64,000 nt of DNA from Chloroflexota bacterium (GTDB lineage Bacteria > Chloroflexota > Anaerolineae > UBA4142), in the NCBI GenBank assembly GCA_016208315.1, contig JACQYF010000176.1, positions 1 through 64,000 of the forward strand, read 5' to 3'. This document shows positions 48,072 through 64,000 of the stretch, one piece after another; positions within the stretch are counted from its first letter, which is position 1, and every line of letters starts with the position of its first letter. Below the pieces are notes generated by a model. That model was not told where the DNA came from and did not search any database. It worked only from the letters and a program-made list of their open reading frames with translations. The translations under genes were made by a program, and so were the position numbers.

Positions 48072-49397
48072 TCAATGGTACGCGCCGTATTCCCTGGCCG
48101 CGTCCGCCATCGCCCGGACATTTTCCGGTTTGGCGTGGTCGAAGAATGCGCCATTCGACAGGATATAGCCGCCGTCTTTGCCGCAAACGTCAATGAGTCT
48201 CTTGACCTCGTCCTTGATTTGTGCGGGCGTGGCTAGCTTCAACATCGCGGATTGCACGTTGCCCAACATACAGAGCGTGTCGCCGACGATTTCCTTGGCG
48301 CGCGCCATGTCCGTCTTGTCGAACATCCAGACTGTCGTCCCTTTGGGAAGGTCCTTGATCACTTCCAATCTCGAGTTGTAGCCGCCTTCGGCCGCCGGGA
48401 ATGGAACGACTCCTTCCTCGATCAATCCCAGGAGCACCTTTCTAAGGGAAGGCCAGTAGAACTTTTTGTACTGTTCGTCCGACAGGAACCCGTCCGCGCC
48501 TTTGTGCAGCGGAATGAAGATGATGGGTTTGCCGGTCATTTGCGCCGCGCCGACGCCCATCTTGATCATGAGCGGCGTGATGGCGTCCAGAGCTTCGAGG
48601 AGTTTCTCCGGCCGACGGTACATATCCATCATGATTCCTTTGGTGCCGCGGAGCGTATCGCCGATGGTGTCGAATGGCGCTTTTGTGAACCCGCCGAGCA
48701 TTTGCGGAAATCCCATCCCCGCCATCTCGCCCTCGAGCGCGCCGACCGTGCCGGCCCATTTCAGCGCTTCGGCCCCTGCCTCAAACAGTTTCTGGTAGGC
48801 GGCTTGAACGGGCGGCAAACCGAAAGGTATGAAATTGAACGCGACCCCATACATTTCCAGAATGCCGGTGAGCTGCGGAAGCATTTGGAAGGGTTCCATC
48901 GCCCCGAACACGCGCGGCAAGTAGGTGTTGCTAAAGAAATACGATGGGTCGTCAATCAGCGCGTCGTATTCGTCCGCCTTCATGTATTCGCCTTCGCGAC
49001 ATTGGTAGACCTGTTCGGGCGCGACGCCGTGCCCGGGCCAGGCGTACAACTTGTAATCCATGATCTCGTAGAATTTCCCCGGGCCCGGCGCGGTCGAGCC
49101 GATGTGTACGTCCGGCTGGAAATCCACAATGAATTTCCGAAACGCCTTGGCGCATTTGTCATAGTCGTACATCACGTCCTCGACCGTCATTCCGGCATAG
49201 TAAACGGGGAAAAAGCCGGGTAGCAGACCGAGGGGAACTCGATCCGGCGCTTTTTTCATCTCGATGGCGTCTTTGATTCGAGTCACGCTCGCCTGGTATG
49301 CCGCTTCGGCCTCGGGACTAGCGAATTGGACGCCCGGCGGGGAGAGCCACTTTTGAAATAGCGCTTGGCGTTTTTGATCTGGCGTTAGCTTGGGCAT
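48072..49397 (-). CDS. URO-D-family corrinoid methyltransferase
   Basis: A 441-residue protein of the uroporphyrinogen decarboxylase superfamily, longer than true HemE (about 350). The superfamily includes methyltransferases that move methyl groups to or from corrinoid proteins. Seen: VPLGLLPGFFPVYYAGMTVE, HKGADGFLSDEQYKKFYWPS and the late barrel segment LCMLGNVQSAMLKLATPAQI, NGAFFDHAKPENVRAM. It sits 18 bases after the corrinoid protein gene and has a strong AGGAGGAGG site. In a cluster for hydroxycinnamates, the likely substrate is a methoxylated aromatic such as vanillate, giving a catechol and methyl-corrinoid. A role with another methyl donor remains possible. Confidence 0.85.
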   Translation of the reverse strand: MPKLTPDQKRQALFQKWLSPPGVQFASPEAEAAYQASVTRIKDAIEMKKAPDRVPLGLLPGFFPVYYAGMTVEDVMYDYDKCAKAFRKFIVDFQPDVHIGSTAPGPGKFYEIMDYKLYAWPGHGVAPEQVYQCREGEYMKADEYDALIDDPSYFFSNTYLPRVFGAMEPFQMLPQLTGILEMYGVAFNFIPFGLPPVQAAYQKLFEAGAEALKWAGTVGALEGEMAGMGFPQMLGGFTKAPFDTIGDTLRGTKGIMMDMYRRPEKLLEALDAITPLMIKMGVGAAQMTGKPIIFIPLHKGADGFLSDEQYKKFYWPSLRKVLLGLIEEGVVPFPAAEGGYNSRLEVIKDLPKGTTVWMFDKTDMARAKEIVGDTLCMLGNVQSAMLKLATPAQIKDEVKRLIDVCGKDGGYILSNGAFFDHAKPENVRAMADAAREYGAYH

Positions 49398-49415
49398 TTT
49401 AGTTACCTCCTCCTT

Positions 49416-50045
49416 TTACGCGCCGATCCACTGTTTGGCGAGCGAGACGCCGGCGACTGCGTTGTTGCCAAAGCCATCCGCGCCCGCAAACCCACAGACG
49501 TCCTGGGTGACTTGGCCGCCACCAACCATGATTTTGACCTTGTCTCGCATTCCGGCGGCTTGAATCGCCTCGACCGTCTCCTTCATCGAGTCGAATGCCA
49601 GAGTGAGAAACCCGCTCAAGGCGACCACCTGCGGTTGAAACTCTTTGATCGCCTCGACAAACCTGCTCGCCGGCACGTCCACGCCCAAGTCCTGCACTTG
49701 AAAGCCATTCACGTCCAGCATAAAGGTCACAATGTCCTTGCCGATGTCGTGAATGTCTCCGTGGACCGTGCCGATGAGGACGCGGCCAAGCTTGGCTTGC
49801 GTCGTCGTCTCCGCCATGCTGGGCTTGACCAGCGCCGACAATTGCCGCATAATCTCGCCGGCGAAGATCAGTTCCGGAATGAACGCCGCGCCCGTTTCAA
49901 AGCGCTTGCCGACGACCGCCATTGCCTCGCGACAGTCGTCGAGAATCACCAGCGGGTCAACGCCGTTGTCTAGCATCTCTTGCGCCGACTGGAGCGCATC
50001 CTCTTCGCGCATGTCGGCAATTGCTTCCACCAGTTGCTTGGTCAT
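49416..50045 (-). CDS. Corrinoid (methyl-B12) carrier protein
   Basis: A 209-residue protein of the MtaC/MtvC/MttC type. A helical cap domain (residues 1-85, with EAMAVVGKRFETGAAFIPEL) precedes the B12-binding Rossmann domain, whose cobalt-ligand motif is GTVHGDIHDIGKD with His99. Next are VQDLGVDVPASRFVEAIKEF and VMVGGGQVTQDVCGFAGADG, the usual contacts. It accepts the methyl group from the URO-D-type protein encoded downstream. Neither a RamA-type reactivase nor the second methyltransferase (to tetrahydrofolate) is in the window. Confidence 0.93.
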   Translation of the reverse strand: MTKQLVEAIADMREEDALQSAQEMLDNGVDPLVILDDCREAMAVVGKRFETGAAFIPELIFAGEIMRQLSALVKPSMAETTTQAKLGRVLIGTVHGDIHDIGKDIVTFMLDVNGFQVQDLGVDVPASRFVEAIKEFQPQVVALSGFLTLAFDSMKETVEAIQAAGMRDKVKIMVGGGQVTQDVCGFAGADGFGNNAVAGVSLAKQWIGA

Positions 50046-50067
50046 GGCTTGCTCCTCCTTGATAGAA

Positions 50068-50727
50068 TCAAATCAACCCTTCCCGGATCGCGATGGCCAC
50101 CGCCTGGGCGCGATTGTGCGCGCCCAGTTTGACCGCGATCTCTTCGATCTTGCGCTTGACCGTTCGGTCGCTCCAATGAATCTCTTTGGCGATGTCCTCG
50201 CTGGTGGCCCCATTCGCGATCCGCGCGAGCACGTGGATTTCGTCCGGCGACAAGTTATGCTCGCGTGTGACTTGCGCTTTTGCGAGCATGTGAAGTTGCC
50301 GCAGCACTTGGTCCATCAACGAGGGCGAGAGCAGACGCTTGCCCTGATGCACGAGCCGGATGGTTTCGACGACGATGTCATCTGAGGAGTTTTTCAACAG
50401 GTACGCATAGCATCCCACTCGAAAAGCGCCCAGGATATATTCTTCGTTGTCATACGCCGTCAAGATGACGATTTTGACTTGGGGCGCGGCGCGCAGGATG
50501 CGGGACGCGACTTCAATGCCTCCCAGCCCGAACATCTGAATGTCCAGCAGGACCACATGCGGACCAAGGTCGGCGACCGCTTGCAGCGCGGCCGTTCCAT
50601 CTTCCGCATCTCCCACGACGGCAATATCGGGATACGAAGACAGCAGACTCTTCAACCCGCGTCTGACCATCGGATGATCGTCCACAATCAAGACGCGAAT
50701 CGGGGCGGGATTCGTACTCTCAACCAT
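50068..50727 (-). CDS. NarL-family response regulator of the aromatic cluster
   Basis: A 219-residue regulator: receiver with IRVLIVDDHPMVRRGL, acceptor Asp in HVVLLDIQMFGLGG, Lys in CYAYLLKNSSDD; C-terminal HTH LSPDEIHVLARIANGATSED, then WSDRTVKRKIEEIAVKLGA. The HTH is somewhat divergent from classical LuxR sequences. It overlaps the kinase gene at 50720 by 8 bases and precedes the corrinoid gene by 22, so it is embedded in the aromatic operon. Confidence 0.92.
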   Translation of the reverse strand: MVESTNPAPIRVLIVDDHPMVRRGLKSLLSSYPDIAVVGDAEDGTAALQAVADLGPHVVLLDIQMFGLGGIEVASRILRAAPQVKIVILTAYDNEEYILGAFRVGCYAYLLKNSSDDIVVETIRLVHQGKRLLSPSLMDQVLRQLHMLAKAQVTREHNLSPDEIHVLARIANGATSEDIAKEIHWSDRTVKRKIEEIAVKLGAHNRAQAVAIAIREGLI

Positions 50728-52822
50728 CCCTCAACTCCTCGCGTTGGTACAAATGCTCAACTTCTGCGCGCACGGGCAGGCGAAAGGTCAAGCGCGTGCC
50801 TTGCCCCGGCGAGGACCACACCTTCATGTCGCCGTTCAGACTCTTGACGCGTTCCCGCATGCCCAATAACCCCAAGCCCGTGCCCTGGCCGTTTTTTCGG
50901 CCCTGCTCATAGTCGAATCCCCGTCCATCGTCCTGCACGCTCACACACAGCGAGCCAGGCGCGAAATCCAACGTCACCGATGCCTCGCTGGCCTGCGCGT
51001 GCGACAGCACGTTGTGCAGACTTTCCTCCACGAGCCGAAACACCGTGATCTCGATGGCGGGCGGCAGACGATACAGCGCGCCCGTGGACTGGACGCGGCA
51101 GGTAATTCCAGAAAGTTCCTGAAAGGCCGCGGCGTGTTTCTGAAGCGCCGGCGCCAAGCCGACGGCGTCGAGCATCGGCGGCTGCAGGTCGTAGATCGCG
51201 CGGCGCAATTCGCGTTCCATTTCGTCGAGGATTTCCCGTAGGGCGTCCATCTTTTCTTGCGCGAGCGGCGGCAGCCCCGCGCCCGCGACGACGCGCGTCG
51301 CCTTGAGTTCAAAGCGCGCGGCGGTAATCAACTGGATGACGCCATCGTGCATATCCCGCGCGATGCGGGCGCGTTCCTCCTCCTGGAGTCGAATCGTCTT
51401 GTCCCACAGCGAGCGCAGCCGTTCCGCCTTGACCGCAATTTCATCTTTGGCGCGCGAGAGTTGTCCGGTTCGCTCGGCGACCTTCTGCTCCAACTCCTGA
51501 CTGAACTGCTTGATCTGCGTGTGCAGCTCGGCATTCTTGACGGCGATAGACGCGAGATCGGCGAATTGACTCAACAACCAGATGTCGTTGTCGTCAAAAG
51601 TCCGGCCATCGGGATCGTTCAAAATATCAATCCCGCCAATAATTTGGTTTTCCCACTTGAGCGGCACGCCGACAATGTGGGTTTCGGTGCCGCCCTCAAA
51701 CACGACGGCATGACCGGGCCAGTTAAAGTAATCGTTGATGATCATCGGATGACCGGTTTGGATCACCTGACCGATAACGCCTTCGCCCAACTGGAGGGTC
51801 ACGCCCGCCCAATTCCGGCCGAGGTTGTAGGAGGCAATCGTATGGATCAACGCGCGCTGGCGATCGTAGAGGTAAAGTTGACCCGCTTTGGCGTCTAAGA
51901 GCATCGCGCCCCGCCGCAGGAGCGCTTCCAGCAGGGCAGGCGTCTCCAGTCGCGCGATGATGTCGAGTGAGGTTTCGTGCAAGGCCACCATCGCTTCGTA
52001 GCGCTGCTTGGTTTCTTGAAACAGCCGGGCATTCTTGATGGCCATGCCCACTTGATTGCCGAGGATTTCCAACGCTGTAACGTCGCCCTGCTCAAACGCA
52101 TTCTGCCGATTGCTCTGCACGTCGAGGACGCCAATCACGCGTTCTCCGGCCCGCAAGGGGACCGCCAATTCGGATTGCGTCTCGGGCAGCAGTTCCACTT
52201 TGTAATAGCGCGGCTCCTGAGTGACGTCATTGCACGCGAGTGTCTGGCCCGTCGCCGCGACCCAACCCGTAATGCCCTCCTGCCCGATTTTGAGTCGCAC
52301 ACCTCGCGCTTTCATCATTTCCGCCGAGGGACTAGCCGCTTCTTTCAGCACGATCTCCCCGCTGTCTTCGTCCACCAAGAAAAGGTTGGCGTGAGAATAG
52401 CCGAACTTGAAGCGGATGAGCATCACCACTTCGGTCAGCAGGGCATTCAAATCGAACAACGCGGTCGTCCGCTGCCCGACCAGACTGGCCGTCTCCAAGT
52501 GCAGCGCATGACGGCGGGCTTGCGCGTGGAGCCGACTGTTTTCAATAGTGGTGACCCAATGGAGAATCAGCCAAAAGACGACCGGATACCCAACTCCCAA
52601 TACGAAAAAGGCGCGGAGAAAGGAAGGCGAGGACAGGGCTTGGGCCTGAATCCACACGTGCTCAAACAGGGCATATCCGATCCCGATCGCGGCGACCAAG
52701 AACGGAATTGCCCGGCGGAGGTAGATCACCCAATGACTCGACGGTGTCTGCTCATCGCGTCTCGCGCGCACGAGTGCCTCCCGTTCCCGCAATTTTCGCA
52801 AGGTACGAGCAATACTGCCCAT
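50720..52822 (-). CDS. GAF-domain sensor histidine kinase of the aromatic cluster
   Basis: A 700-residue kinase. Two membrane helices near residues 34-55 and 68-90 with almost no external loop; two GAF domains (about 115-262 and 275-425); a coiled coil; HisKA_3 with the His in RARIARDMHDGVIQLITAAR; and an ATPase domain (LVEESLHNVLSHAQASEASV, VQDDGRGFDYEQG, GTGLGLLGMRERV). Because there is no periplasmic domain, the signal is probably read by the GAF domains in the cytoplasm, for example an aromatic compound or a redox cue. The start at 52822 is supported by the N-terminal pattern. Confidence 0.92.
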   Translation of the reverse strand: MGSIARTLRKLREREALVRARRDEQTPSSHWVIYLRRAIPFLVAAIGIGYALFEHVWIQAQALSSPSFLRAFFVLGVGYPVVFWLILHWVTTIENSRLHAQARRHALHLETASLVGQRTTALFDLNALLTEVVMLIRFKFGYSHANLFLVDEDSGEIVLKEAASPSAEMMKARGVRLKIGQEGITGWVAATGQTLACNDVTQEPRYYKVELLPETQSELAVPLRAGERVIGVLDVQSNRQNAFEQGDVTALEILGNQVGMAIKNARLFQETKQRYEAMVALHETSLDIIARLETPALLEALLRRGAMLLDAKAGQLYLYDRQRALIHTIASYNLGRNWAGVTLQLGEGVIGQVIQTGHPMIINDYFNWPGHAVVFEGGTETHIVGVPLKWENQIIGGIDILNDPDGRTFDDNDIWLLSQFADLASIAVKNAELHTQIKQFSQELEQKVAERTGQLSRAKDEIAVKAERLRSLWDKTIRLQEEERARIARDMHDGVIQLITAARFELKATRVVAGAGLPPLAQEKMDALREILDEMERELRRAIYDLQPPMLDAVGLAPALQKHAAAFQELSGITCRVQSTGALYRLPPAIEITVFRLVEESLHNVLSHAQASEASVTLDFAPGSLCVSVQDDGRGFDYEQGRKNGQGTGLGLLGMRERVKSLNGDMKVWSSPGQGTRLTFRLPVRAEVEHLYQREELRDG

Positions 52823-52882
52823 TCGGTGACACTGGCATTATAACGGGTTCTGCTTTCCACACCTAATCAGGGGCTGGCGTAG

Positions 52883-52950
52883 ACAAGTATACAGGTACAC
52901 AGGTACACAGGTACACAGGTACTTGTTTACGTGTCTACCTGTATACTTGT
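52883..52950. repeat. ACAGGTACAC palindromic repeat, copy 1
   Basis: Tandem ACAGGTAC units between 15-bp inverted arms ACAAGTATACAGGTA (52883-52897) and its complement (52936-52950). The right arm encodes the last residues (TQVYR) and stop of the CoA ligase. A related block lies at 59972-60066. Confidence 0.9.
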
Positions 52951-54569
52951 GTAGCTGTTTCCCTAACTGCGCGATCGACTTGTTCCTTCAGCCGCGCCTT
53001 GAGAATCTTGCCCGTGGCCGTTTCCGGGAATTGCTCGACAAACCATACATAGTCGGGCACTTTATAGTCCGCTAACTTGCCCCGGCAGAAATCCTTAATC
53101 TCGGCTGCGGTCGGCCGCGTATTTGGCCGCGCCCGAATACACGCGCAGGTCTTTTCGCCCAGCACCGGATCCGCAACGGCTACGACTACCGCGTCCAGAA
53201 CGCCGGGGCAGGTACGCAGTAAATCTTCGATCTCGAGCGGATAGATGTTATATCCGCCGCGGATAATCATGTCCTTTTTTCTGCCGACGATCCGAATATA
53301 CCCCCGCTCGTCTCGACATCCCAAATCGCCCGTGTAAAACCAACCATCCGCGTCGAATGCCGCTGCCGTTGCTTCAGGTTGTTTGTAGTAACCTTTCATC
53401 ACGCCCGCGCTTTTGATGGCGATTTCACCCACCTGCCCATCGGGCACCGCGCGGCGATTATCGTCCACGAGTTTCAGCGCAACACCCGGCAGCGCACGTC
53501 CCACGGTTTCCGTCTGCGCGATGGCATCGTCCTCAAAGAGCGTGTTGGCTATTCCTCCCGAATGCTCGGTCATGCCGTAGCCGATCAGCGCATGAACACC
53601 CCTGGCGATGAGGCGGCGGATCAGTTCAGCCGGCACCCCTGCGCCGGCGACCAGTCCTGTGCGGAGCGACGAAATGTCATACTTGTCCGCGCTCGCGAGT
53701 TCGAGTGAATAGATGGTCGGCACGGCGTACTGCACGGTTACCTTTTCTCGCTCGATCAATTCCAGGATCGGCTCCGCCTTGAAAATATCGGCGAGGATCA
53801 CTTTGGCGTGATAATAAAACGCGCAGTTTAGGCAAAAAAAGCCGATGATGTGCGACGTAGGCACCAGGACCAGGAAAACGTCGGCGGAGGTTATCTGGAA
53901 TGGCTCGGAGGCAACCTGTGTCGTCCAAACGAAATTCGAGTGCGTAATCATCGCGCCCTTGGGCGCGCTGGTCGTCCCCGAGGTGTACATGAGTACGGCG
54001 ATGTCCGTCGCGGGGTCTATGTCGGCTTCGGGAATCGGGTTGCCGCGAGCGCGTGAAATCAGTTCGTCAAAATCAAGAGCATGGCCTGGCGGTATGGGGA
54101 TGCCGCCGTCAAGAGATAGGCCGTCAAGAGATCCACTGTCAGCAGATTCGTTCTTTCCTCCGACCGCGATCACGTGGCGCAACGCCGGCAAGTCGGGGCG
54201 CAACTTTTGAATGGTAGGCAAATAATCAAAGCCGTCGAACTCAACCGGCAGAATGATCGCGACCGACTCGGAATCGCGCAGGATATGCCGAGTCTCCATC
54301 TCGCGATAGCGCGGGTTGACCAGCACGACGACGGCCCCAAGACGTAAGATGGCAAAATAGGAAAAGACGAACTCGGGCCAGTTGGGCAAAGCGATTGCCA
54401 CCTTGTCGCCTTTGCGAACGCCGAGTGCGGCGAGTTGCTCTGTCAGCCGGTTGACCTGCTCGCCCAGTTCGCGATACGTATAACGACGAGTTCCAAAGAC
54501 GAGGGCTTGCCGATCGGGATTGGTTTCCAAATTGGCTGCCAAAATAGACTGGATGGTTGTGTATGTCAT
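52935..54569 (-). CDS. Acyl-CoA ligase, probable hydroxycinnamate (feruloyl)-CoA ligase
   Basis: A 544-residue AMP-forming ligase. Core motifs: VLMYTSGTTSAPKGAMITHS (phosphate loop), YGMTEHSGG, GWFYTGDLGCRDERGYIRIV, GRKKDMIIRGGYNIYP hinge, and the C-terminal catalytic Lys in ETATGKILKARL. Substrate is inferred: the hydratase-lyase two genes upstream in the operon needs hydroxycinnamoyl-CoA, so ferulate, coumarate or caffeate are the natural acids. A fatty-acid or benzoate ligase cannot be excluded from the sequence. It overlaps the C_GCAxxG_C_C gene by 4 bases. Confidence 0.9.
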   Translation of the reverse strand: MTYTTIQSILAANLETNPDRQALVFGTRRYTYRELGEQVNRLTEQLAALGVRKGDKVAIALPNWPEFVFSYFAILRLGAVVVLVNPRYREMETRHILRDSESVAIILPVEFDGFDYLPTIQKLRPDLPALRHVIAVGGKNESADSGSLDGLSLDGGIPIPPGHALDFDELISRARGNPIPEADIDPATDIAVLMYTSGTTSAPKGAMITHSNFVWTTQVASEPFQITSADVFLVLVPTSHIIGFFCLNCAFYYHAKVILADIFKAEPILELIEREKVTVQYAVPTIYSLELASADKYDISSLRTGLVAGAGVPAELIRRLIARGVHALIGYGMTEHSGGIANTLFEDDAIAQTETVGRALPGVALKLVDDNRRAVPDGQVGEIAIKSAGVMKGYYKQPEATAAAFDADGWFYTGDLGCRDERGYIRIVGRKKDMIIRGGYNIYPLEIEDLLRTCPGVLDAVVVAVADPVLGEKTCACIRARPNTRPTAAEIKDFCRGKLADYKVPDYVWFVEQFPETATGKILKARLKEQVDRAVRETATQVYR

Positions 54570-55192
54570 TTAGTTTCGATAATGATCTCGGCGGCCAGCC
54601 GAGCGCCGATCCCCGGAAGGAGACCGCACTTTTCAAAACCTTTGGCGCGCGCGAACTGCTCCATGTTCTCCGGGCTAGCGGCCGGATCCATGTAACGCCC
54701 AAAGACGACGTCTTGGTGTATCTTGGGGCAGACGACTGCGCCCACTTGCTCTTCAAAGCGGGGCATGAATTTCCGGGCCGCCACGATCGTCGCGCCAACC
54801 GCCTCATAATTCTGCAAGTCGTCACTGCCGAAGGCGAGTCCCAGGGCGATCAAGCTGCCGGTCACGCCCCCGCACATCCAGCCGGTCCCGCCGAAACCGG
54901 GAAACGGGGAGAGCGCTTGAACGATCTCCATATTGCCCAAGCCGAATTCTTCGAGCAGGGCGAGCGCGGTGCTCTTGGCGCAATTGCGCGCGAACCAGTT
55001 GTACTCTTCGGCGCGTCGCTGGACGCGGTCCAGGATTTGCGGCTTGTTCGCCAGGATTTCATCCCGCGTGAGTGTTTGCCTGGGAATCCCGCTGGCCGCC
55101 AGTTTCTTGTACCGAGCTTGAATCGCGTCGAGGTCCCAGTCTCTCTCCGCCAGTTCCTGCACTCTAGCCGCGAGCGCGGCACGGTCAGGCAT
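54566..55192 (-). CDS. C_GCAxxG_C_C-family putative redox protein
   Basis: A 208-residue protein whose C-terminal 145 residues fit the C_GCAxxG_C_C family: RNCAKSTALALLEEFGLGN, GFGGTGWMCGGVTGSLIALG and a later VCPKIH Cys. The family's first Gly-Cys pattern is altered to Asn-Cys-Ala. An extra 60-residue helical N-terminus (ALAARVQELAERDWDLDAIQ) precedes it. Members often sit beside aldehyde oxidoreductases and other anaerobic redox enzymes and may bind a metal or Fe-S centre; no activity is established. Coupled to the ligase gene by a 4-base overlap. Confidence 0.75.
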   Translation of the reverse strand: MPDRAALAARVQELAERDWDLDAIQARYKKLAASGIPRQTLTRDEILANKPQILDRVQRRAEEYNWFARNCAKSTALALLEEFGLGNMEIVQALSPFPGFGGTGWMCGGVTGSLIALGLAFGSDDLQNYEAVGATIVAARKFMPRFEEQVGAVVCPKIHQDVVFGRYMDPAASPENMEQFARAKGFEKCGLLPGIGARLAAEIIIETK

Positions 55193-55204
55193 GATTGCCT
55201 CCCT

Positions 55205-56127: not shown

Positions 56128-56415
56128 TTATCCGCCCGAGACAGGCGGGAGTATCAAGACCTCATCCCCGTCTTTCAGCGGTGTCTTTATGCCTTCAAGA
56201 TAGTGAATTGTCTGGCCGTTGACCATGATCTGCACATAAGGAAGAACGGCGCCGCTGTCAGGATCAAACAGGCGGGCGGAGAGGTTGTCTCCCCACCTTT
56301 CCGTAACGAAGGTCAGGAAATCCGCTACCGTCGTTCCCTGGGGAAGATCAATCTCGGTCCGGCTCTGGCCGACTATATCTTTGAGTCCCAGAATCGTGTG
56401 CAGCGTAATCTTCAT
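56128..56415 (-). CDS. MoaD/ThiS-like protein linked to the aldehyde oxidoreductase
   Basis: A 95-residue ubiquitin-like protein (MKITLHTILGLKDIVG, IDLPQGTTVADFLTFV, VQIMVNGQTIHYLEGIKTPL) ending in PPVSGG, the Gly-Gly tail needed for thiocarboxylate activation. Such paralogues of MoaD are commonly paired with tungsten aldehyde oxidoreductases, where they probably serve assembly of the metallopterin site. Starts 11 bases downstream of the AOR stop. Confidence 0.85.
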   Translation of the reverse strand: MKITLHTILGLKDIVGQSRTEIDLPQGTTVADFLTFVTERWGDNLSARLFDPDSGAVLPYVQIMVNGQTIHYLEGIKTPLKDGDEVLILPPVSGG

Positions 56416-56426: not shown

Positions 56427-58301
56427 CTACAATCTCAACGCAGCCGCAGCGTATGCTAGTCGTAGATCGGTGAGCTTTTCTCGGGTGGGTGTTCCTGTCT
56501 TGACATCCCAGCCGCGCAATGAGTAGTACTCGTCAAGCATCTTGTCCAGGTCTTGTCTACGGAGCACCTGTCCCTTGGAGCCGCCGGCCCTCAGGGGTTC
56601 TGTCATCAGTCTTTCGGGCAAGGTGTCATCCGCGCGCGTGAAACCTTCCCGGACATTAAAGGCCTTGGCGAGGTTGTTGACCCGTTCGCCCACTTGCAGT
56701 ACCTCTTCAGGGGTGAAGGACAGACCCGTCACCGCCTCCATGAGCGTTGCCGTGTTCTGACACGCCGTCGCGGGCACAGCCATATCGAGGAGGAAGGCGC
56801 ACATGGTAGCGCAATCCAGGGTCGCTGTCCGGACATCCTGGTTCCAGATGGTGAGCTTGCCCTTGTCCTCTAGGGCGAAGCGGTCCACCTGCCAGGGGAT
56901 CGGGACGCCAAAGACCTCCTGAAAAGCATAGCCCCTACAGTGATCGGCCCCGGTGTAAGAGGTGGCATATCCAAGACCGTGGGCTTTGAGCGCCCGCACG
57001 TCGTAGCCGGGAAGTTCAAGCCCCTTGACCTGCATGGCGTACTTTTCCGTACCTTTCCCAATTCTCCGCGCGGCCGCAAGCGTGCCGTCGGCAAGGACAT
57101 CCCCTAGACCGTCACGGAACGCGATCTTACGCAAGACCCTCAGCATGGCTTCCGCGTTGCCGAAAGACAAGTCAATGCCGTCAGTCTCCTTGAGCGTGAG
57201 GATGCCCTTCTCGAAGAGTTCCATGGCGAACGCAATGGTCACGCCTGCAGAAATGGTGTCGAGGCCCAATTCGTCAGCCAGCCGGTCGGCGGCGATGATG
57301 GGATCCACCTCGCCGATACCGACGACGCTTCCAAAGGAGTAAACCGTTTCAAAGTCGGGACCCTCCGTGAGGATGCCGGCGTACGGGCCTGTTTGGGCGA
57401 GCTTCAACTGACTGCAGCCGACGGGGCATTCGTGGCAGTGTTCCCGGCCCACCTTTCGGGTCGCTTGCGCGTCTCGGCCGATCCCTTCGACGGGAACGAA
57501 CTCGCCCGTTGCGGACCAGTTTTTTGCCGGAAGGACGCCCATGGCGCCGGTGAGGTCCGTGACCATGGGTGTGCCGTGATGAGAGAACTCGGGATAGAGA
57601 ACGGGGCTGTCCTTGAATGCCATGAGCAACGCGGTTCTGGCTGTCTTGTACTTGTCCTCGGAGCCGATAGCCACGGTATCGGTTCCTCGGATCGCAAGCG
57701 CCTTCAAGTTCTTGGATCCCATCACGGCGCCGAGGCCCTTGCGTCCGACGGCTCTGCGTTCGTTGATGATGCATGCCATCCGGCTCAGGTGCTCTCCGGC
57801 AGGACCAATGCAACACACGCGCACATTTTGGTCGCTTAATTCGTTCTTGATGATTTGCTGGCAATCGAAGGTCAGGGTCCCCCAGCAATGACTCGCGTCA
57901 CGGAACCGCACGTCCTTGCCCGTGATGGCAACGTAGGTTGGTTTGTCCGCCTTCCCTTCGACGATGATTGCATCCCACCCGGCATACTTTATCTCGGTGG
58001 GGAACTCGCCTCCTGACAAAGCCATACCGACAGCGCCGGTGAGAGGCGACTTGCCTGTCACTGCCATCCTGCTCGCGCAGGGAACGCCGGCGCCGGTGAA
58101 AGGCCCCGGCGCAAAGACGAGTATGTTGTCGGGTCCGAGGGGATCTATGCCTGGCTTGACCTCGTCGAAGAGGTGCTTGATGCCAAAACCCGCTCCGCCG
58201 ATGAAATCCCGCGCCATTTCCTCCGGCAATCGTTCTTCTCGTGATGTGCTGTTGCTGAGATTGATGCGGAGTACCTTACCCGCATACCCTCCGGAATACA
58301 T
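56427..58301 (-). CDS. aor: Aldehyde:ferredoxin oxidoreductase, tungsten type
   Basis: A 624-residue AOR-family enzyme, the family's normal length. It oxidises aldehydes to acids with ferredoxin as acceptor using a W (or Mo) bis-pterin and one [4Fe-4S] cluster. Seen: MYSGGYAGKVLRINLSNSTS, FIGGAGFGIKHLFDEV, SRMAVTGKSPLTGAVGMALS, VMGSKNLKALAIRG, and the cluster cysteines in REHCHECPVGCSQLKL plus a later Cys in LDCATMCAFLLD. In this operon vanillin or 4-hydroxybenzaldehyde from the hydratase-lyase is the obvious substrate. No FAD or ferredoxin subunit is encoded next to it, so it resembles the simple archaeal type rather than the multi-subunit Aromatoleum type. Confidence 0.92.
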   Translation of the reverse strand: MYSGGYAGKVLRINLSNSTSREERLPEEMARDFIGGAGFGIKHLFDEVKPGIDPLGPDNILVFAPGPFTGAGVPCASRMAVTGKSPLTGAVGMALSGGEFPTEIKYAGWDAIIVEGKADKPTYVAITGKDVRFRDASHCWGTLTFDCQQIIKNELSDQNVRVCCIGPAGEHLSRMACIINERRAVGRKGLGAVMGSKNLKALAIRGTDTVAIGSEDKYKTARTALLMAFKDSPVLYPEFSHHGTPMVTDLTGAMGVLPAKNWSATGEFVPVEGIGRDAQATRKVGREHCHECPVGCSQLKLAQTGPYAGILTEGPDFETVYSFGSVVGIGEVDPIIAADRLADELGLDTISAGVTIAFAMELFEKGILTLKETDGIDLSFGNAEAMLRVLRKIAFRDGLGDVLADGTLAAARRIGKGTEKYAMQVKGLELPGYDVRALKAHGLGYATSYTGADHCRGYAFQEVFGVPIPWQVDRFALEDKGKLTIWNQDVRTATLDCATMCAFLLDMAVPATACQNTATLMEAVTGLSFTPEEVLQVGERVNNLAKAFNVREGFTRADDTLPERLMTEPLRAGGSKGQVLRRQDLDKMLDEYYSLRGWDVKTGTPTREKLTDLRLAYAAAALRL

Positions 58302-58320
58302 GTCTGCCCTCCTTAATTGG

Positions 58321-58341
58321 GCAGGGTGACCCCGCCCCTAC
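58321..58341. repeat. GTAGGGGCGGGG-family palindrome, partial copy
   Basis: The right arm plus part of the left (GCAGGGTGACCCCGCCCCTA) of the palindrome found complete at 27178. It abuts the stop codon of the MoaF-like gene. Confidence 0.8.
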
Positions 58342-59129
58342 TAAATTGGCTGTGCGTCAAGCGGATAGAAGGCCATCGAGAGCTTGGTGATCAACGCGCC
58401 GGCGGGCGTATTGGCGATGGCGCCGTCTTCGCCGATGGCAAAGAACTTGCCGGTGGACCGCATCTGGTCCCAGTTGTAGAAGAACACGGTCGAGACCGGC
58501 AGGCCGAATTCGCGAAAGCAAAAAATGTACTGATTGTCGTCGAACTTGAACACCGTGGCGAGATCAACATCGCTTTCGCCCCGCAGCGGTCCGCGAATGC
58601 ACTGCCAGCAATAGCGCTGCGAACTCAGATAGATGTGCTCAAAGCATTGCGTGGGGCTATAAGAATATATCCCGCGTAAGCCGATCAGGTCGCGCGTCGG
58701 AGCGGGCTTGCGTCCAGTCGGCGGAATGGCCGGATTGCCGAGCACGCCCGGCGCGAACTCGTGGAGCGCGCGCGGCTCTTTGCCAACATCGCCTTCGCGC
58801 ATGATCGTGCGGACCGCTAGCACTTGACGCGTTTGGGTATTGACGATGAAGGTCTGCGACTCGCGCGGCTGGTGTAGAAAAGTCAGGTCAACGAAATACG
58901 TGTGCGCGGCCACCTCTACCACTTGACACCAGTCTGTGCCGCGCTCGCCGTCGCTTTGCCACACAACCTGGTTGCGGTCCGCGAACTCGAGAGCAAAGCA
59001 TCGCCCCGAATCGAGCGTGATCGTCATCTGTTGGTTCACCAGCGCAGTGGTCTGCGGCAGGCGATTCGCCGCCAATTCCGACGCATAGTCCTCGTACTTG
59101 TAATTCGTGCTGCCTTCTTCTTGAGGCAT
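58341..59129 (-). CDS. MoaF-like lipocalin-fold protein
   Basis: A 262-residue, mostly beta protein with two related halves. The pattern (LALEFADRN-type strand with VVWQSDGERGTDWCQVVEV, HTYFVDLTFLHQPRESQTFI, IYSYSPTQCFEHIYLSSQRY, CFREFGLPVSTVFFYNWDQM) resembles the MoaF family, first found beside monoamine oxidase genes and still without firm function. Calycin-fold proteins can bind small aromatics, so a binding or accessory role for phenolics is possible; this is inference. It lies between the AOR and SDR genes, one base after the SDR stop. Confidence 0.6.
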   Translation of the reverse strand: MPQEEGSTNYKYEDYASELAANRLPQTTALVNQQMTITLDSGRCFALEFADRNQVVWQSDGERGTDWCQVVEVAAHTYFVDLTFLHQPRESQTFIVNTQTRQVLAVRTIMREGDVGKEPRALHEFAPGVLGNPAIPPTGRKPAPTRDLIGLRGIYSYSPTQCFEHIYLSSQRYCWQCIRGPLRGESDVDLATVFKFDDNQYIFCFREFGLPVSTVFFYNWDQMRSTGKFFAIGEDGAIANTPAGALITKLSMAFYPLDAQPI

Positions 59130-59130
59130 G

Positions 59131-59952
59131 TCACACTCCCCACCGGACGCCGGCGTTGCTAACCGCAGCTCCGGCTACGTCAACAATTGCCGCGCCGCCA
59201 TCAAGCAGCAAAACAGACCCGGTCATAAAGGTCGAATCATCGCTGGCGAGGTAACTGCAAATGCCGGTGATCTCGTCAGGATTCGCCGTCCGCCTCAGGG
59301 GAACCATCGAAGCGATACACTTGAAGACGCCGTCCAGATCGGTGCCGAGTACGTCGGCAAGCGGGCTGAGCGATTTTTCTAGCATCGCCGTCCGCGTGCC
59401 TCCCGGACACACGACATTGCAGCGAATCTTGGATGGACCGAAATCCAGCGCGACCTGCTGCGTGAGCATGATGAGAGCCGCTTTGGACGTGCAGTAGGCG
59501 GGCATGCCCGGCAGGCAGCGCAAGCCGCCCAGTGAAGCAATGTTGATGATCGAACCGCCGCCCCCCTTTGTCATGTGCGGTATTGCCGCCTTCATCATGT
59601 ACATGGGACCGGTGACATTCGTTTCGAGGACGCTGTGCCAGAGCTCGGGATCAATGTCCACGACGGTCGTCCCGCCGGGATCAATCGCCGCGTTATTCAC
59701 CAGCACGTCGAGCTTGCCGCCGAAGGCGAGCGCGCCATCCACTATTCGCCGCACGTCCTCCAGTTTCGTTACATCTCCCGCGCACGCGGCCACGGTCCCC
59801 GCCGGCAGTGATCGCGCCACCTCGTCGAGCATCTGCTGGCGGCGACCGGTTATGCATATCTTCGCGCCATCGGTGACGAACCGCTTGGCAATCGCCGCGC
59901 CGATGCCCGTACCCGCGCCGGTAATGAGCGCCACCTTGCCGTCAAGTTTCAT
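59131..59952 (-). CDS. Short-chain dehydrogenase/reductase
   Basis: A 273-residue classical SDR. Cofactor motif VALITGAGTGIGAAIAKRF, NNAAIDPGG, catalytic Ser in IINIASLGG and Tyr/Lys in PAYCTSKAALIML; PGGTRTAML follows. ATG 59952 is chosen because GGGGA lies six bases before it and the family start (MKLDGKVALIT) fits. In the aromatic cluster it may act on an alcohol or ring-oxidation product, for example oxidising the 3-hydroxy-acyl-CoA in a non-cleaving side route; the substrate is not evident. Confidence 0.9.
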   Translation of the reverse strand: MKLDGKVALITGAGTGIGAAIAKRFVTDGAKICITGRRQQMLDEVARSLPAGTVAACAGDVTKLEDVRRIVDGALAFGGKLDVLVNNAAIDPGGTTVVDIDPELWHSVLETNVTGPMYMMKAAIPHMTKGGGGSIINIASLGGLRCLPGMPAYCTSKAALIMLTQQVALDFGPSKIRCNVVCPGGTRTAMLEKSLSPLADVLGTDLDGVFKCIASMVPLRRTANPDEITGICSYLASDDSTFMTGSVLLLDGGAAIVDVAGAAVSNAGVRWGV

Positions 59953-59971
59953 GTGGATTCCCCGGTGCATT

Positions 59972-60066
59972 CGTAAACACGTACACAAGTAAACAGGGAA
60001 ACAAGTAAACAAGTAGACAAGTGCCCTGTGTACCTGTGTACCTGGATACCTGTATACTTGTTTACG
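59972..60066. repeat. ACAAGTAAACA / ACAGGTACAC palindromic repeat, copy 2
   Basis: Units such as AAACAAGTAAACAAGTAGAC pair with TGTGTACCTGTGTACCTGG and GTATACTTGTTTAC across about 95 bp. It supplies the TAA stop of the alcohol dehydrogenase gene and resembles the block at 52883-52950. Confidence 0.85.
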
Positions 60067-61159
60067 GTCGCAAAATTGGTTTGATCACGCGCCCTTTTTC
60101 CATTTCTTCGACCGCGTGATTGATTTCGTCGAATGGGTAGAATTTGACGAGCCGGTCAAATGGGAATCGCCCCTGGCAGTACAGATCAACCAGTTTGGGG
60201 ATGAACAGGTCTGGAATCGAATCGCCTTCGATGATGCCTCGCACCGTCCGGCCGTTCATGATCTTGTCCATGTCGAGCGCGACCTCTGTGCCAGGCGCAA
60301 CGACCCCTAGCAGTCCGCAGACTCCCAGACGCGGCAGACAATCCACCGCTTGCCGCAGCACCCTGGGATTGCCGACACACTCTAGCACGAATTCCGCGCC
60401 GCCGCCGGTGATGTCCAGAATCTGCTGAACCGGGTCCGTTTCGCTTGCGTTCACGGTATGCGTTGCGCCCAACTCGCGTGCCGTCTTCAGCCGGTCGGGA
60501 TGCACGTCCACGGCGATGATGGTCGTGCAGCCGCACACGACCGCGCCGAGCAATGCGCTGAGGCCCACCGTGCCAACGCCAAAGATCGCGATGGACGAAC
60601 CGGGACGGGGATGCAGTGTGTTCATTACCGCGCCCGCGCCGGTTTGAACGCCGCACCCTAAAGGTCCAAGGATTTCGAGGGGGACATCATTTCGCACCTT
60701 GACGACATTGCGTTCATTCGCCAGCGCGTAATCGGCGAAGGACGACTGGGTGAAGAAATTGCCGTGGATGACCTGATCGCCCCGTCGCAAGGTCGTACTG
60801 CCGTCCGGCCGCGCGCCGTGGAAATTGTGGAGGAAGAGATTCACGCAATAGGAGGGCTTGCCCGCTTTGCACGGTGGACACGCCCCGCAGGAGTTGAAGG
60901 TCAATACAACGTGATCGCCCGGCTTGACCTTGGTTACCCGCGCGCCCACCCGTTCGACGACGCCGGCGCCTTCATGTCCAAACACACTGGGCGGCGGCGG
61001 GATCGGCATGTGCCCGTCCCGCGCGCCCAAATCGGTGTGGCAAATGCCCGCGCCGGCAATCCGCACCACCACCTCATCGTCATTCGGCTCACTCAGTTGC
61101 AGTCGCTCCAGACTAAACTTGCCTGATGTCTCAAAAATTACAGCGGCGTTGATTTCCAT
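60062..61159 (-). CDS. Zinc-dependent aryl-alcohol-type dehydrogenase
   Basis: A 365-residue MDR-family enzyme. Catalytic zinc ligands in AGAGICHTDLGARDGH and GHEGAGVVERVG; structural zinc Cys cluster in NSCGACPPCKAGKPSYCVNL; NAD-binding IAIFGVGTVGLSALLGAVVC with Asp in IIAVDVHPDR. The layout matches benzyl/aryl-alcohol dehydrogenases, and in the cluster it could interconvert vanillyl alcohol and vanillin. ATG 61159 has GGAGGAC just upstream; the longer frame overlaps livF and is rejected. Confidence 0.9.
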   Translation of the reverse strand: MEINAAVIFETSGKFSLERLQLSEPNDDEVVVRIAGAGICHTDLGARDGHMPIPPPPSVFGHEGAGVVERVGARVTKVKPGDHVVLTFNSCGACPPCKAGKPSYCVNLFLHNFHGARPDGSTTLRRGDQVIHGNFFTQSSFADYALANERNVVKVRNDVPLEILGPLGCGVQTGAGAVMNTLHPRPGSSIAIFGVGTVGLSALLGAVVCGCTTIIAVDVHPDRLKTARELGATHTVNASETDPVQQILDITGGGAEFVLECVGNPRVLRQAVDCLPRLGVCGLLGVVAPGTEVALDMDKIMNGRTVRGIIEGDSIPDLFIPKLVDLYCQGRFPFDRLVKFYPFDEINHAVEEMEKGRVIKPILRP

Positions 61160-61169
61160 TGCTGTCCTC

Positions 61170-61874
61170 CTACAACCCCATATACGCTTTCCGCACGTAA
61201 TCGCTTTGCAGTAGTTCGGCGCAATCCCCTTCGAGGCAGACGTGCCCGTTTTCGAGCACGTACGCGCGATCGGCGATCTCCAAGGAATGTTTGACGTTTT
61301 GCTCGATGAGCAAAATAGTAATTCCCTGGTCGCGCAGCCCGCGAATGATGCCAAAGATTTCTGCCACCAACAGCGGCGCGAGACCGTACGAGAGTTCGTC
61401 GAACATGCACAGCCGCGGTTTGGACATTAGGCCGCGACCGATCGCGAGCATTTGGCGCTCGCCGCCGCTCAACGTCCGCGCCAATTGCCTCTCCCGTTCC
61501 TTGAGCCGGGGAAAAAGGTCAAAGACTTGCTTGAGCGTTTGTTGCTTTTCTTTCCAAGCATGATGGGGATACGCGCCCATCTCCAAGTTCTCGCGCACCG
61601 ACATATCGGGAAAGAGCTTGCTTCCTTCGGGGACCTGAGAAATACCCAAATCCACAATGGCGTGCGCCGACAAACCATCTATCCGCTTGCCGAGGAACTC
61701 GACGCTGCCGGCCGCGGGACGCAGCACTCCGCAGACCGTATTCAGCAGGGTTGTTTTGCCGGCGCCGTTCGCGCCAACCAGCGCGACGATTTCGCCTTCC
61801 TCGATTCTGAGGCACACTTCCCACAGCGCCTGAATCTTGCCGTAACGAGTGTCTATCTGGTTAACCTGCAGCAT
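61170..61874 (-). CDS. livF: Branched-chain-type ABC transporter ATPase (LivF)
   Basis: A 234-residue ATPase. Walker A VALVGANGAGKTTLLNTVCG, Q-loop SQVPEGSKLFPDMSVRENLE, signature LSGGERQMLAIGRGLMSKPR, D in CMFDELSYGLAP, and H-loop replaced by EQN (LLIEQNVKHSL), which is normal for LivF. ATG 61874 overlaps the livG stop by 14 bases. With livG, livM and livH it makes a hydrophobic-amino-acid-type importer; such importers also carry hydroxycinnamates, as known for Rhodopseudomonas CouPSTW. Confidence 0.93.
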   Translation of the reverse strand: MLQVNQIDTRYGKIQALWEVCLRIEEGEIVALVGANGAGKTTLLNTVCGVLRPAAGSVEFLGKRIDGLSAHAIVDLGISQVPEGSKLFPDMSVRENLEMGAYPHHAWKEKQQTLKQVFDLFPRLKERERQLARTLSGGERQMLAIGRGLMSKPRLCMFDELSYGLAPLLVAEIFGIIRGLRDQGITILLIEQNVKHSLEIADRAYVLENGHVCLEGDCAELLQSDYVRKAYMGL

Positions 61875-62598
61875 AAGCCGATTCTCCCAAGTAGACCTCG
61901 ACGACGGTCTTGCTCGTGGCGATCTCTTGCGGCGTGCCTTCCGCAATCTTTTCGCCGTGATGGAGCACGATGATCCGGTCGCAGACATTCATAATGGCCT
62001 TCATCACATGCTCGATCATCAAGATCGTAATTCCCTTATCCCGAATCTGGGTCACCATCTCCATTGCCTGCGCAACCTCGGTGGGGTTCAACCCGGCCAT
62101 CAATTCGTCCAGCAACAGCAGTTCCGGCTGCGTGGCGAGTGCTCTGGCGACCTCCAGTCTTTTCTGATTCGCGAGCGTCAAATCCTTCGCGAGGGTCGCG
62201 CTCATCGCCGACAAACCGGTAAAATCCAATAGCTCCATGGCCTCCTGAGCGGCATCGGCCGACGATACGCTCCGTGACTTGCCAAACAGCGCGCCGAGCA
62301 ACACATTGTCGCGCGCCGACAGGGTCCCAAAGATGTGGACCGCTTGAAACGTTCTGGCCACGCCTCCGTGACAGATTTGGTGTGGTTTGACGCCGCTGAT
62401 TTTCTTGCCTTTGAATCTGATCTCACCCGAATCAGGAACCAGCGCGCCCGAAATCAGATTGAACAGCGTGGTTTTGCCGGCCCCATTCGGACCGATCAGA
62501 CCGACGACTTGGCCTTGGTCCACGTTAAAGTCTACACGGGACACCGCCGCCAAACCCCCAAAATTCTTGGTCACCCGCTCGCTTTCCAGAATTTGCAT
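61861..62598 (-). CDS. livG: Branched-chain-type ABC transporter ATPase (LivG)
   Basis: A 245-residue ATPase. Walker A VGLIGPNGAGKTTLFNLISG, Q-loop RTFQAVHIFGTLSARDNVLL, signature region KDLTLANQKRLEVARALATQ (the LSGGQ is degenerate here, a little more so than the usual LivG LPYGxQR form), Walker B ELLLLDELMAGLNPTE, H in MIEHVMKAIMNVCDRII. ATG 62598 is chosen from the family start; the open frame extends upstream into the repeat at 62611. Confidence 0.92.
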   Translation of the reverse strand: MQILESERVTKNFGGLAAVSRVDFNVDQGQVVGLIGPNGAGKTTLFNLISGALVPDSGEIRFKGKKISGVKPHQICHGGVARTFQAVHIFGTLSARDNVLLGALFGKSRSVSSADAAQEAMELLDFTGLSAMSATLAKDLTLANQKRLEVARALATQPELLLLDELMAGLNPTEVAQAMEMVTQIRDKGITILMIEHVMKAIMNVCDRIIVLHHGEKIAEGTPQEIATSKTVVEVYLGESAYAAG

Positions 62599-62610
62599 GT
62601 GCTTCACTTT

Positions 62611-62702
62611 GTCATTTCGACGACCGAGGTCGCCACCTCGGTGGGCGCAGCGAGAAATCTCTTGCCCGAAAAGCGAGATCTCGCGCCCCGCTCGCGATGA
62701 CA
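62611..62702. repeat. GTCATTTCGA element, copy 2
   Basis: About 92 bp bounded by GTCATTTCGACGACCGAGGT and GCGATGACA, with CGAGAAATCTCTTG inside, like the element at 27082-27172. It forms the last roughly 30 codons and the stop of livM. Confidence 0.8.
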
Positions 62703-63625
62703 CGCGGAGCAGTTACCCTTTGGATCAGCCCTACCAATCCATTGGGCAGGTACAAGATCGCAATCACCATGATCGCGCCGAACAAGAGCATATAGTAATA
62801 AGGGAACCGGGTGATCAAGATTTCTTCCAGGTAGCCGAAAATAATCGCGCCGACGATGGGGCCGTAAAATTGTCCCATGCCGCCAAAGATCGCCATCAAA
62901 ACGGGCATGAAAGACAAGAGGGGGTTGAAGGCGATGAACGGGTCAATGTACGTCCAGCGCGTCGCCATGATGGCCCCGGCCGCGCCGGTGAAAAACGCGC
63001 TGACGGCGAAGGTGATGACTTTGAGCGCGGTTACGTTGATGCCGATGTGCGCGGCCGCTTGCTCGTTATCGCCAATGCTTTGCAGGGCAAGTCCGAATTT
63101 TGAGCGTCGGATCAGGTAAGCGGTCAGGATCAGGACGGCAAGAATACTGACCATGACGTAATAAACCGTGACGTGATCCACCACGATAACGAACCTGCCG
63201 CGCGTGCCGGTAAAATGAATCTCCCACCACAAGAGCAAATTCTTGATGAGTTCGACCAGTCCAAACGTAAAGATCGCAAAGTAAATCCCCTTGAGGCGCA
63301 GCGTCAGCGCGCCGACGAGCAGCGCCAGACCGAAACTGGCCAGCCCGCCGATCACTACGACGAGCGGCAAGGGTAACATTTTTCCCAGTATGGCGGAGCT
63401 ATAAATGCCGACGCCGAAAAAGGCCGCGGGCGCGAGCGAGACGTAGCCGGTCGGACCCGAGAAGATGACCCAACTCATCGTCAGGACCACATACATAAAG
63501 ATCGCGGTCAGCAGGATGACCGTATAGATCGGAAAGTACGCGGGACCGGTCGCGAACAGGATCACGACAACTCCGAGAAACCCCAGTAGTAACCACGGCC
63601 TTGAAGCGACCCCGAGACGATTCAT
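62612..63625 (-). CDS. livM: Branched-chain-type ABC transporter permease (LivM)
   Basis: A 337-residue inner-membrane permease with eight or nine hydrophobic segments. Family landmarks: GPTGYVSLAPAAFFGVGIYS, ALTLRLKGIYFAIFTFGLVE, SKFGLALQSIGDNEQAAAHI (ATPase-coupling region), FGGMGQFYGPIVGAIIFGYL, LPNGLVGLI. The natural C-terminus would be near residue 305; the Arg-rich tail after it (SGARDLAFRARDFSLRPPRW) is translated from the GTCATTTCGA repeat. Confidence 0.93.
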   Translation of the reverse strand: MNRLGVASRPWLLLGFLGVVVILFATGPAYFPIYTVILLTAIFMYVVLTMSWVIFSGPTGYVSLAPAAFFGVGIYSSAILGKMLPLPLVVVIGGLASFGLALLVGALTLRLKGIYFAIFTFGLVELIKNLLLWWEIHFTGTRGRFVIVVDHVTVYYVMVSILAVLILTAYLIRRSKFGLALQSIGDNEQAAAHIGINVTALKVITFAVSAFFTGAAGAIMATRWTYIDPFIAFNPLLSFMPVLMAIFGGMGQFYGPIVGAIIFGYLEEILITRFPYYYMLLFGAIMVIAILYLPNGLVGLIQRVTAPRVIASGARDLAFRARDFSLRPPRWRPRSSK

Positions 63626-63628
63626 TTC

Positions 63629-64000
63629 CTACCTTCCCAAAATGCCGGTGGGCTTGACGAGGAGCAGGAGCATAAAGATCACATAGTAGGCCACCAGCGA
63701 CAATCCCGGTTCGATGTAACTGACAATGCTGCCGACAATGCCGAGTATGAATCCGCCAAGAAAACTGCCGGGGATACTGCCGAGTCCGCCGAGGACCACC
63801 ACGATAATGGCGATGATCGCATATTCGAGTCCCATCGTCGCATTGACCGGGTAGCTGATGCTAATCAGCACGCCGGCGATACTCGCCAATCCGGCGCCCA
63901 AACCGAAACACAACGCGAGCACCAACTGGGTGTTCACGCCCATCAGTCCCGCCGTCAAGCGATCCTGCGCCGCGGCGCGAATCCCCTTGCCCATACGGGT
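63629..64000 (-). CDS. livH: Branched-chain-type ABC transporter permease (LivH), 5' part outside window
   Basis: The C-terminal 123 residues of a LivH permease. The coupling segment TRMGKGIRAAAQDRLTAGLM, then GVNTQLVLALCFGLGAGLAS and FLGGFILGIVGSIVSYIEPG are typical. The frame continues past the window edge, so the ATG inside it (MGKGIRA) is not the start. Three bases separate its stop from the livM start. A substrate-binding protein was not seen and is probably further upstream. Confidence 0.93.
   Translation of the reverse strand, partial: TRMGKGIRAAAQDRLTAGLMGVNTQLVLALCFGLGAGLASIAGVLISISYPVNATMGLEYAIIAIIVVVLGGLGSIPGSFLGGFILGIVGSIVSYIEPGLSLVAYYVIFMLLLLVKPTGILGR

Follow-up and report, generated by a model that had tools for sequence, protein, structure and literature searches.

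A putative operon combining hydroxycinnamoyl-CoA cleavage, aldehyde oxidoreductase and corrinoid methyltransferase genes in an Anaerolineae bacterium

The DNA analysed here, called the window, is a 64,000-nucleotide stretch of a Chloroflexota genome (class Anaerolineae) corresponding to positions 1–64000 of a 90,434-base contig. The draft genome measures 6.26 Mb, with 93% completeness and 6.8% contamination. The minus strand at the right end of the window carries a run of genes encoding a Liv-type ABC importer, an alcohol dehydrogenase (ADH), an aldehyde oxidoreductase (AOR), a p-hydroxycinnamoyl-CoA hydratase/lyase (HCHL), a CoA ligase, a corrinoid protein (CP) and a corrinoid-dependent methyltransferase I (MT1). 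This operon probably serves the breakdown of guaiacyl-type phenylpropanoids, for example ferulate, and would combine side-chain cleavage, aldehyde oxidation and O-demethylation. Coniferyl alcohol or aldehyde would possibly also be used, via the ADH and the AOR. The reading is built on the identity of the HCHL and on the linkage of the same gene set in a second bacterial family.

Results

Identity of the HCHL

The HCHL was compared with curated models, solved structures and relatives. It scored 426 bits against the PRK09120 equivalog model (cut-off 276, residues 10–277), the next crotonase model giving 173 bits, under that model's own cut-off. The closest solved structures were 6p5u and the HCHLs 6l3o and 2vsu. 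The catalytic Glu143 and Tyr75 and the oxyanion-hole residues Met70 and Gly120 (P. fluorescens numbering) are all retained. According to docking of Streptomyces Ech, the equivalent Glu152 is catalytic and Tyr248 lies at the phenolic hydroxyl (PMC10487757). A 21-row tree, with few outgroups on long branches, split HCHLs from ordinary crotonases (100/100) and clustered the window protein with the copies of two related genomes, G410 and G440. Judged from these comparisons, the hydratase is a genuine HCHL, as had been proposed in an earlier note made from the sequence of this DNA alone. A placement among fatty-acid enoyl-CoA hydratases was not seen, though no characterised member of that group was included in the tree; identity as an ordinary enoyl-CoA hydratase was ruled out by the equivalog score and the tree. 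The nearest HCHLs found beyond the phylum are those of Rhizobium (65–66% identical); beside them lie genes for a coniferyl aldehyde dehydrogenase, a CoA ligase and an ADH that is 53% identical to that of the window.

Linkage in related genomes

Of 400 genomes searched in the phylum, 6 have an HCHL above the cut-off and 4 an MT1 (E up to 1e-60); the window genome is the only one with both. The 99 closer relatives yielded two more genomes with close HCHLs, G410 and G440. In G440, which belongs to another family of the same class, one strand carries the order CP-MT1-ADH-LivJHMGF-CaiB-CaiB-AOR-MoaD-HCHL-C_GCAxxG (the CaiB-type CoA-transferases were named by eye). Identity to the window proteins is 76–85% for HCHL, AOR and C_GCAxxG and 58–66% for CP and MT1. 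The gene order differs and the CoA-transferases replace the CoA ligase, the gene set being retained. Because the linkage survives rearrangement in a second family, it argues for a shared function, in line with the functional coupling of HCHL, AOR and corrinoid genes suggested in the earlier note. The CoA-transferase pair of G440 lies at 8832–11602 of locus L113 (G440:C164). CaiB-like pairs were also found next to HCHL, where a feruloyl-CoA ligase might have been expected, in two more genomes of the phylum, G073 and G320 (loci L120 and L121), and these support CoA activation by CaiB in G440. The G410 HCHL (L112, G410:C71, 146–17177) is 91% identical to that of the window, and its neighbours are CaiB transferases and pairs resembling 2-hydroxyacyl-CoA dehydratase, a setting that would suit a supply from aryl-lactates. 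It is uninformative on linkage because this copy sits at a contig end.

Corrinoid protein and methyltransferase

The MT1 gene adjoins the CP gene, and a methyltransferase I of URO-D fold beside a corrinoid protein is one feature of corrinoid aryl-O-demethylase systems. The AlphaFold model of MT1 (pLDDT 93) has the URO-D fold. A Foldseek search with this model (library to April 2026) returned the URO-D fold only, and CdmB was not among the matches. By sequence, the best PDB match was CdmB (128 bits, with low identity that falls mostly in the C-terminal half), which was the only strong methyltransferase match. Against the curated MtaA/CmuA/MtbA models, MT1 reached 37 bits (cut-off 235) and 48 bits (cut-off 244) and is not a member; an MtaA/CmuA-type identity was ruled out by these scores. 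Together with the fold and the match to CdmB, they speak against a methanol- or methylamine-type methyltransferase, a placement that the earlier note had named as refuting its reading. MT1 is annotated here as a putative aryl-O-demethylase methyltransferase I. A search of plasmids gave no useful MT1 relative.

Scanning named genomes brought up 23 further CP-MT1 loci, which belong to Anaerolineae, Dehalococcoidia, Deltaproteobacteria/Desulfobacterales, Spirochaetota and other groups. Many of them have short flanks, and absences weigh less than presences. CP adjoins MT1 in 18 of the 23. Among the other neighbours, the specific Liv importer or its binding protein was counted at 8 loci, methyltransferase II likewise at 8, some form of AOR at 6, an activase at 5 and an ADH with 75–77% identity at 3. 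From these neighbourhoods, the core appears to be CP-MT1 with the importer, often accompanied by ADH or AOR. Methyltransferase II and activase both lie beside CP-MT1 in L013, L018 and L027. L015, L020 and L025 encode a CCG Fe-S protein and a pair of FAD proteins near CP-MT1; the larger FAD protein of L020 matches enzymes that oxidise 4-alkylphenols (PCMH and the oxidases of eugenol and vanillyl alcohol) better than glycolate and lactate enzymes. L013 carries a three-subunit molybdenum enzyme like 4-hydroxybenzoyl-CoA reductase, with the Fe-S insertion of the beta subunit recognised by eye. These flavoproteins and this molybdenum enzyme are independent pointers to para-hydroxylated aromatics.

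A cluster DUF1638-methyltransferase II-CP-MT1, with a divergent GntR regulator and a second corrinoid protein, recurs in Anaerolineae (L010, L012, L018, L019, L031, L123 and L124). Parts of it were also found in Candidatus Frackibacter.

AOR, ligase and accessory genes

The AOR (AFOR_N 254.6 and AFOR_C 424.2 bits, Pfam) was aligned over its full length with the Pyrococcus AOR 1aor, and the four cluster cysteines (CxxCxxxC plus a distal Cys) are retained. It is 82% identical to the G440 AOR and at most 41% identical to six compared paralogues of its own genome. An aromatic aldehyde would be its substrate and ferredoxin its electron acceptor. The small MoaD-like gene lies between AOR and HCHL in G440 too, and no NAD-type aldehyde dehydrogenase gene was found within the run. 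The best PDB matches of the CoA ligase were 8weu and 8wev (the latter named feruloyl-CoA synthetase), followed by aryl-acid ligases; since aryl and fatty acid ligases score close to feruloyl-CoA synthetase, a hydroxycinnamate is put forward only as its presumed substrate.

A homologue of the C_GCAxxG_C_C protein (76% identical) directly follows HCHL in G440, and others lie near MT1 in L015 and L024. ADH homologues (75–77% identical) were found near MT1 in L012, L015, L020 and G440, and an SDR homologue (78% identical) next to MoaF in L020. The MoaF-domain protein occurs once among the 400 genomes of the phylum. In Rhizobiaceae, MoaF also stands next to an SDR and near a Liv importer, that SDR being only 33% identical to the window SDR. 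SDR-MoaF-NTF2-like operons lie beside a Liv-type importer on Rhizobium/Agrobacterium plasmids (L114 7220–9197; L117 5165–7150), and genes for a GMC oxidoreductase or a 4-hydroxyphenylacetate hydroxylase lie in the vicinity. The function of MoaF may lie in phenol catabolism.

Layout of the run

Enzyme and regulator families were assigned with Pfam and NCBIfam; the liv genes were recognised by eye and from matches in relatives (Table 1). The earlier note had described 16 minus-strand genes of named families. All of them were found where it placed them, but the MoaF and C_GCAxxG_C_C proteins had been left unnamed, and the run comes to 17 genes when the substrate-binding-protein gene just beyond the window edge (about 64615–65991), which heads it, is counted. 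With corrected starts, the intergenic gaps are 112 bp between the sensor kinase and CoA ligase genes, 109 bp between ADH and SDR and at most 51 bp elsewhere, several genes overlapping. The term operon is used here on one-strand order and spacing only. Directly 3' of the last gene, the stem of a terminator-like hairpin is by far the longest of 19 terminator-like sites listed; across the region as a whole, such sites and promoter-like ones are about as numerous as chance would give.

Table 1. Coordinates of the features of the run in the window
Feature	Position	Strand	Basis or remark
Strong intrinsic-terminator-like hairpin	48001..48043	-	20-pair stem, 3-nt loop, weak T-containing tail
MT1, URO-D-fold corrinoid-dependent methyltransferase (441 aa), putative aryl-O-demethylase methyltransferase I	48072..49397	-	Pfam URO-D 81.9 bits
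CP, corrinoid protein	49416..50045	-	Pfam B12-binding_2 + B12-binding
NarL/LuxR-type response regulator	50068..50727	-	Pfam Response_reg + GerE
GAF-GAF-HisKA_3 sensor kinase	50720..52822	-	Pfam
AMP-binding CoA ligase, putative hydroxycinnamate-CoA ligase	52935..54569	-	Pfam AMP-binding 314 bits
C_GCAxxG_C_C putative redox protein	54566..55192	-	PF09719 57.9 bits
HCHL	55244..56107	-	NCBIfam PRK09120 equivalog, residues, tree
MoaD/ThiS-like small protein, AOR partner	56128..56415	-	TIGR01687 63.6 (cut-off 49.5)
AOR, tungsten/molybdenum aldehyde oxidoreductase	56427..58301	-	Pfam AFOR_N + AFOR_C
MoaF-domain protein	58341..59129	-	MoaF_C 121.9 bits
SDR dehydrogenase	59131..59952	-	NCBIfam SDR models; start moved from 60012
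ADH, Zn-type alcohol dehydrogenase	60062..61159	-	NCBIfam
LivF-type ATPase	61170..61874	-	By eye and relatives (62–74% identical, adjoining MT1 there); start corrected
LivG-type ATPase	61861..62598	-	By eye and relatives; start corrected
LivM-type permease	62612..63625	-	By eye and relatives
LivH-type permease	63629..64000	-	By eye and relatives; extends to 64495, outside the window

On the plus strand, convergent with the run, positions 43901–47933 of the window carry genes like those of an aldo-keto reductase, an oligogalacturonide lyase and GH4 (by eye). Pectin-use-like genes thus adjoin the ferulate-type operon. Upstream of the run on the opposite strand, a PaaK-like ligase gene is followed by genes for a molybdopterin enzyme and a ferredoxin-type Fe-S protein (L009 6353–10346; contig 66352–70345). 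Among solved structures, this molybdopterin enzyme matched acetylene hydratase best (434 bits). Beside the second CP-MT1 pair of the genome (C135:58326–63479) lies another enzyme, 57% identical to this molybdopterin enzyme, together with an Fe-S protein. Further along the same contig (71988–90434; L009 11989–14502; L063 8836–18435), an unusually long AOR-family protein of 837 aa and an HdrA/HdrB/HdrC-like cluster are encoded. The Hdr-like cluster might serve the AORs as a route for electrons at low potential.

Rest of the genome

The statement in the earlier note that all steps are encoded together was too strong, as genes of the methyl route lie elsewhere in the genome: methyltransferase-II homologues on contigs C9, C1 and C190, three activases on C190, C96 and C1, and an acetyl-CoA synthase gene on C190. 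C1 carries one CP-MT2-RACo cluster, and its methyltransferase-II match contains one internal TGA.

Ring reduction in the organism is possible. An operon like that of 4-hydroxybenzoyl-CoA reductase was found on C207 (alpha subunit 882, cut-off 995; beta subunit 286, cut-off 405) and a BcrBC-like pair on C14 (266, cut-off 421; 208, cut-off 487); these are best or near-best matches, yet under the cut-offs. Several haem-copper oxidase (COX1) genes (C169, C55, C116 and C198) are present in the same draft as the acetyl-CoA synthase gene. The organism may therefore have a mixed lifestyle instead of being strictly anaerobic, or DNA of more than one organism may have entered the draft.

Discussion

In the proposed pathway, the phenylpropanoid would be taken up by the Liv-type importer and converted by the CoA ligase (CoA-transferases in G440) to the hydroxycinnamoyl-CoA, which HCHL would hydrate and cleave to acetyl-CoA and the aromatic aldehyde. 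Oxidation of this aldehyde to the acid would fall to the AOR and its MoaD-like partner. MT1 and CP would move the ring O-methyl group onto the corrinoid protein, from which tetrahydrofolate and the Wood-Ljungdahl branch would receive it with the help of a methyltransferase II and an activase whose genes lie elsewhere, with a presumed gain of C1 units.

Several observations weigh against this reading. The only solved close relative of MT1, CdmB, acts on haloalkanes. It is a chloromethane methyltransferase inactive on methoxyaromatics, on which its relatives MtoB, MtvB, OdmB and VdmB are active (PMC13222342), and because they differ in substrate, that of MT1 cannot be read from its family. Of these enzymes, CdmB was the one compared with MT1 by sequence. 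The best PDB match of CP, 4jgi (164 bits), a protein of a putative D. hafniense O-demethylase, has no clear margin over a trimethylamine corrinoid protein (149 bits). In the HCHL, the 4-hydroxyl contact Tyr239 is replaced by Ile and Ser123 by Leu; annotated HCHLs vary at both positions (Y/V/A/F/M and S/T/A/G/V, respectively), which are not a defining feature. Among solved structures, the importer binding protein gave no CouP match, only weak urea/Leu-type ones. No methyltransferase II or corrinoid activase gene was found in the run, so methyl transfer is not self-contained there. Finally, HCHL was found in 0 of the 23 other CP-MT1 loci within the flanks covered and is thus an added side-chain module rather than part of the core. 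The co-occurrence of HCHL, AOR and corrinoid methyltransferase that the earlier note proposed to look for is seen in the linked set of G440 and not, within those flanks, in these loci; the interpretation given in the note is, as a whole, partly supported.

The methyl group might be removed first, from ferulate to give caffeate or on the CoA ester; HCHL would then cleave caffeoyl-CoA to protocatechualdehyde, and neither vanillin nor vanillate would be formed. Acetogen O-demethylases act on intact phenylpropenoids, nothing in the sequence fixes the order of the steps, and the window HCHL differs from the P. fluorescens enzyme at the residue on the 4-hydroxyl side; neither order has direct support, and we regard demethylation before cleavage as somewhat unlikely. 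It is improbable that CP-MT1 and HCHL-AOR share an operon and not a substrate, CP-MT1 using a non-aromatic methyl donor (a haloalkane, betaine or other) and HCHL-AOR p-coumarate. The haloalkane activity of CdmB is in keeping with such a division, as is the presence of CP-MT1 without HCHL in many genomes, among them that of Frackibacter, which is not known as an aromatics degrader. However, the linkage is retained in two families despite rearrangement, CP-MT1 elsewhere neighbours PCMH/VAO-like and 4-hydroxybenzoyl-CoA reductase-like genes, and the same importer and ADH go with CP-MT1 whether or not HCHL is present.

The 112-bp gap ahead of the kinase gene (52823–52934) might also divide the run into two units, liv-ADH-SDR-MoaF-AOR-HCHL-ligase and an independently expressed kinase-regulator-CP-MT1. 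This is unlikely: no minus-strand terminator- or promoter-like site was found within the gap, and in G440 CP-MT1 lies at the opposite end of the run, beside ADH and on the same strand. Two such units could still serve a single pathway.

The preferred reading, a catabolic unit for guaiacyl-type phenylpropanoids, was compared with known systems. Rhodopseudomonas palustris uses CouAB and CouPSTU for anaerobic p-coumarate degradation by a non-beta-oxidation route (PMC3610893). As in the window, a Liv-family ABC importer is clustered there with an aryl-CoA ligase and a hydratase-lyase, for hydroxycinnamate catabolism without oxygen. In contrast, the AOR is present only in the window, the binding protein of the window has no CouP match, and the sensor kinase/regulator pair stands in place of the MarR-type CouR. 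Corrinoid O-demethylation is not known from the R. palustris Cou system. The R. johnstonii pRL12 operon (ligase-HCHL-ADH-coniferyl aldehyde dehydrogenase, RL_RS35425–35440; HCHL 66% and ADH 53% identical) follows the same plan, in which the substrate is activated with CoA, its side chain cleaved and the aldehyde oxidised, but has an NAD-type aldehyde dehydrogenase instead of the AOR and no corrinoid genes in the region shown.

MtvABC of Moorella, Odm/Vdm of Acetobacterium and Desulfitobacterium and MtoABCD of Methermicoccus and Archaeoglobus (PMC8359953) likewise combine a URO-D-family methyltransferase I with a corrinoid protein, methyltransferase II and activase being separate proteins in these systems and in the window genome. 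Unlike them, the window has an MT1 of a distant branch and an operon devoid of methyltransferase II and activase, to which a side-chain-cleaving enzyme and an AOR are added. CdmBCA of Acetobacterium dehalogenans has the closest solved methyltransferase I by sequence and the same three-component logic, whereas it acts on haloalkanes and no aromatic genes were reported in cdmBCA (PMC13222342). In its mode of action, the operon would resemble a cleavage pathway of CouAB type to which an O-demethylase has been attached. A literature search gave no report joining HCHL, AOR and corrinoid demethylation; being limited, it is no proof of absence. The component steps are known separately, and their combination is a new arrangement of known enzymes.

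A broader proposal, which we make tentatively and at slightly less than even confidence, is that CP-MT1, Liv importer, ADH and AOR form a widely transferred guaiacyl core in uncultured anaerobes (Anaerolineae, Dehalococcoidia, Desulfobacterota and Spirochaetota), with a new branch of methyltransferase I and interchangeable side-chain modules. These modules would be HCHL with ligase or CoA-transferases, and elsewhere the PCMH/VAO-like flavoprotein pair; the HCHL version would encode cleavage, low-potential aldehyde oxidation and methyl transfer to the Wood-Ljungdahl pathway as a unit. What is known of the anaerobic fate of lignin phenylpropenoids is mainly their demethylation with side-chain reduction by acetogens, or cleavage of CouAB type by phototrophs. 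Joined in a single unit, cleavage, tungsten-type oxidation of the aldehyde and corrinoid demethylation would connect the monomers of lignin with the Wood-Ljungdahl pathway in sediment bacteria that are still uncultured. HCHL, AOR, CP and MT1 would then provide a marker set for metagenomes, and a defined new branch of methyltransferase I is offered for substrate testing.

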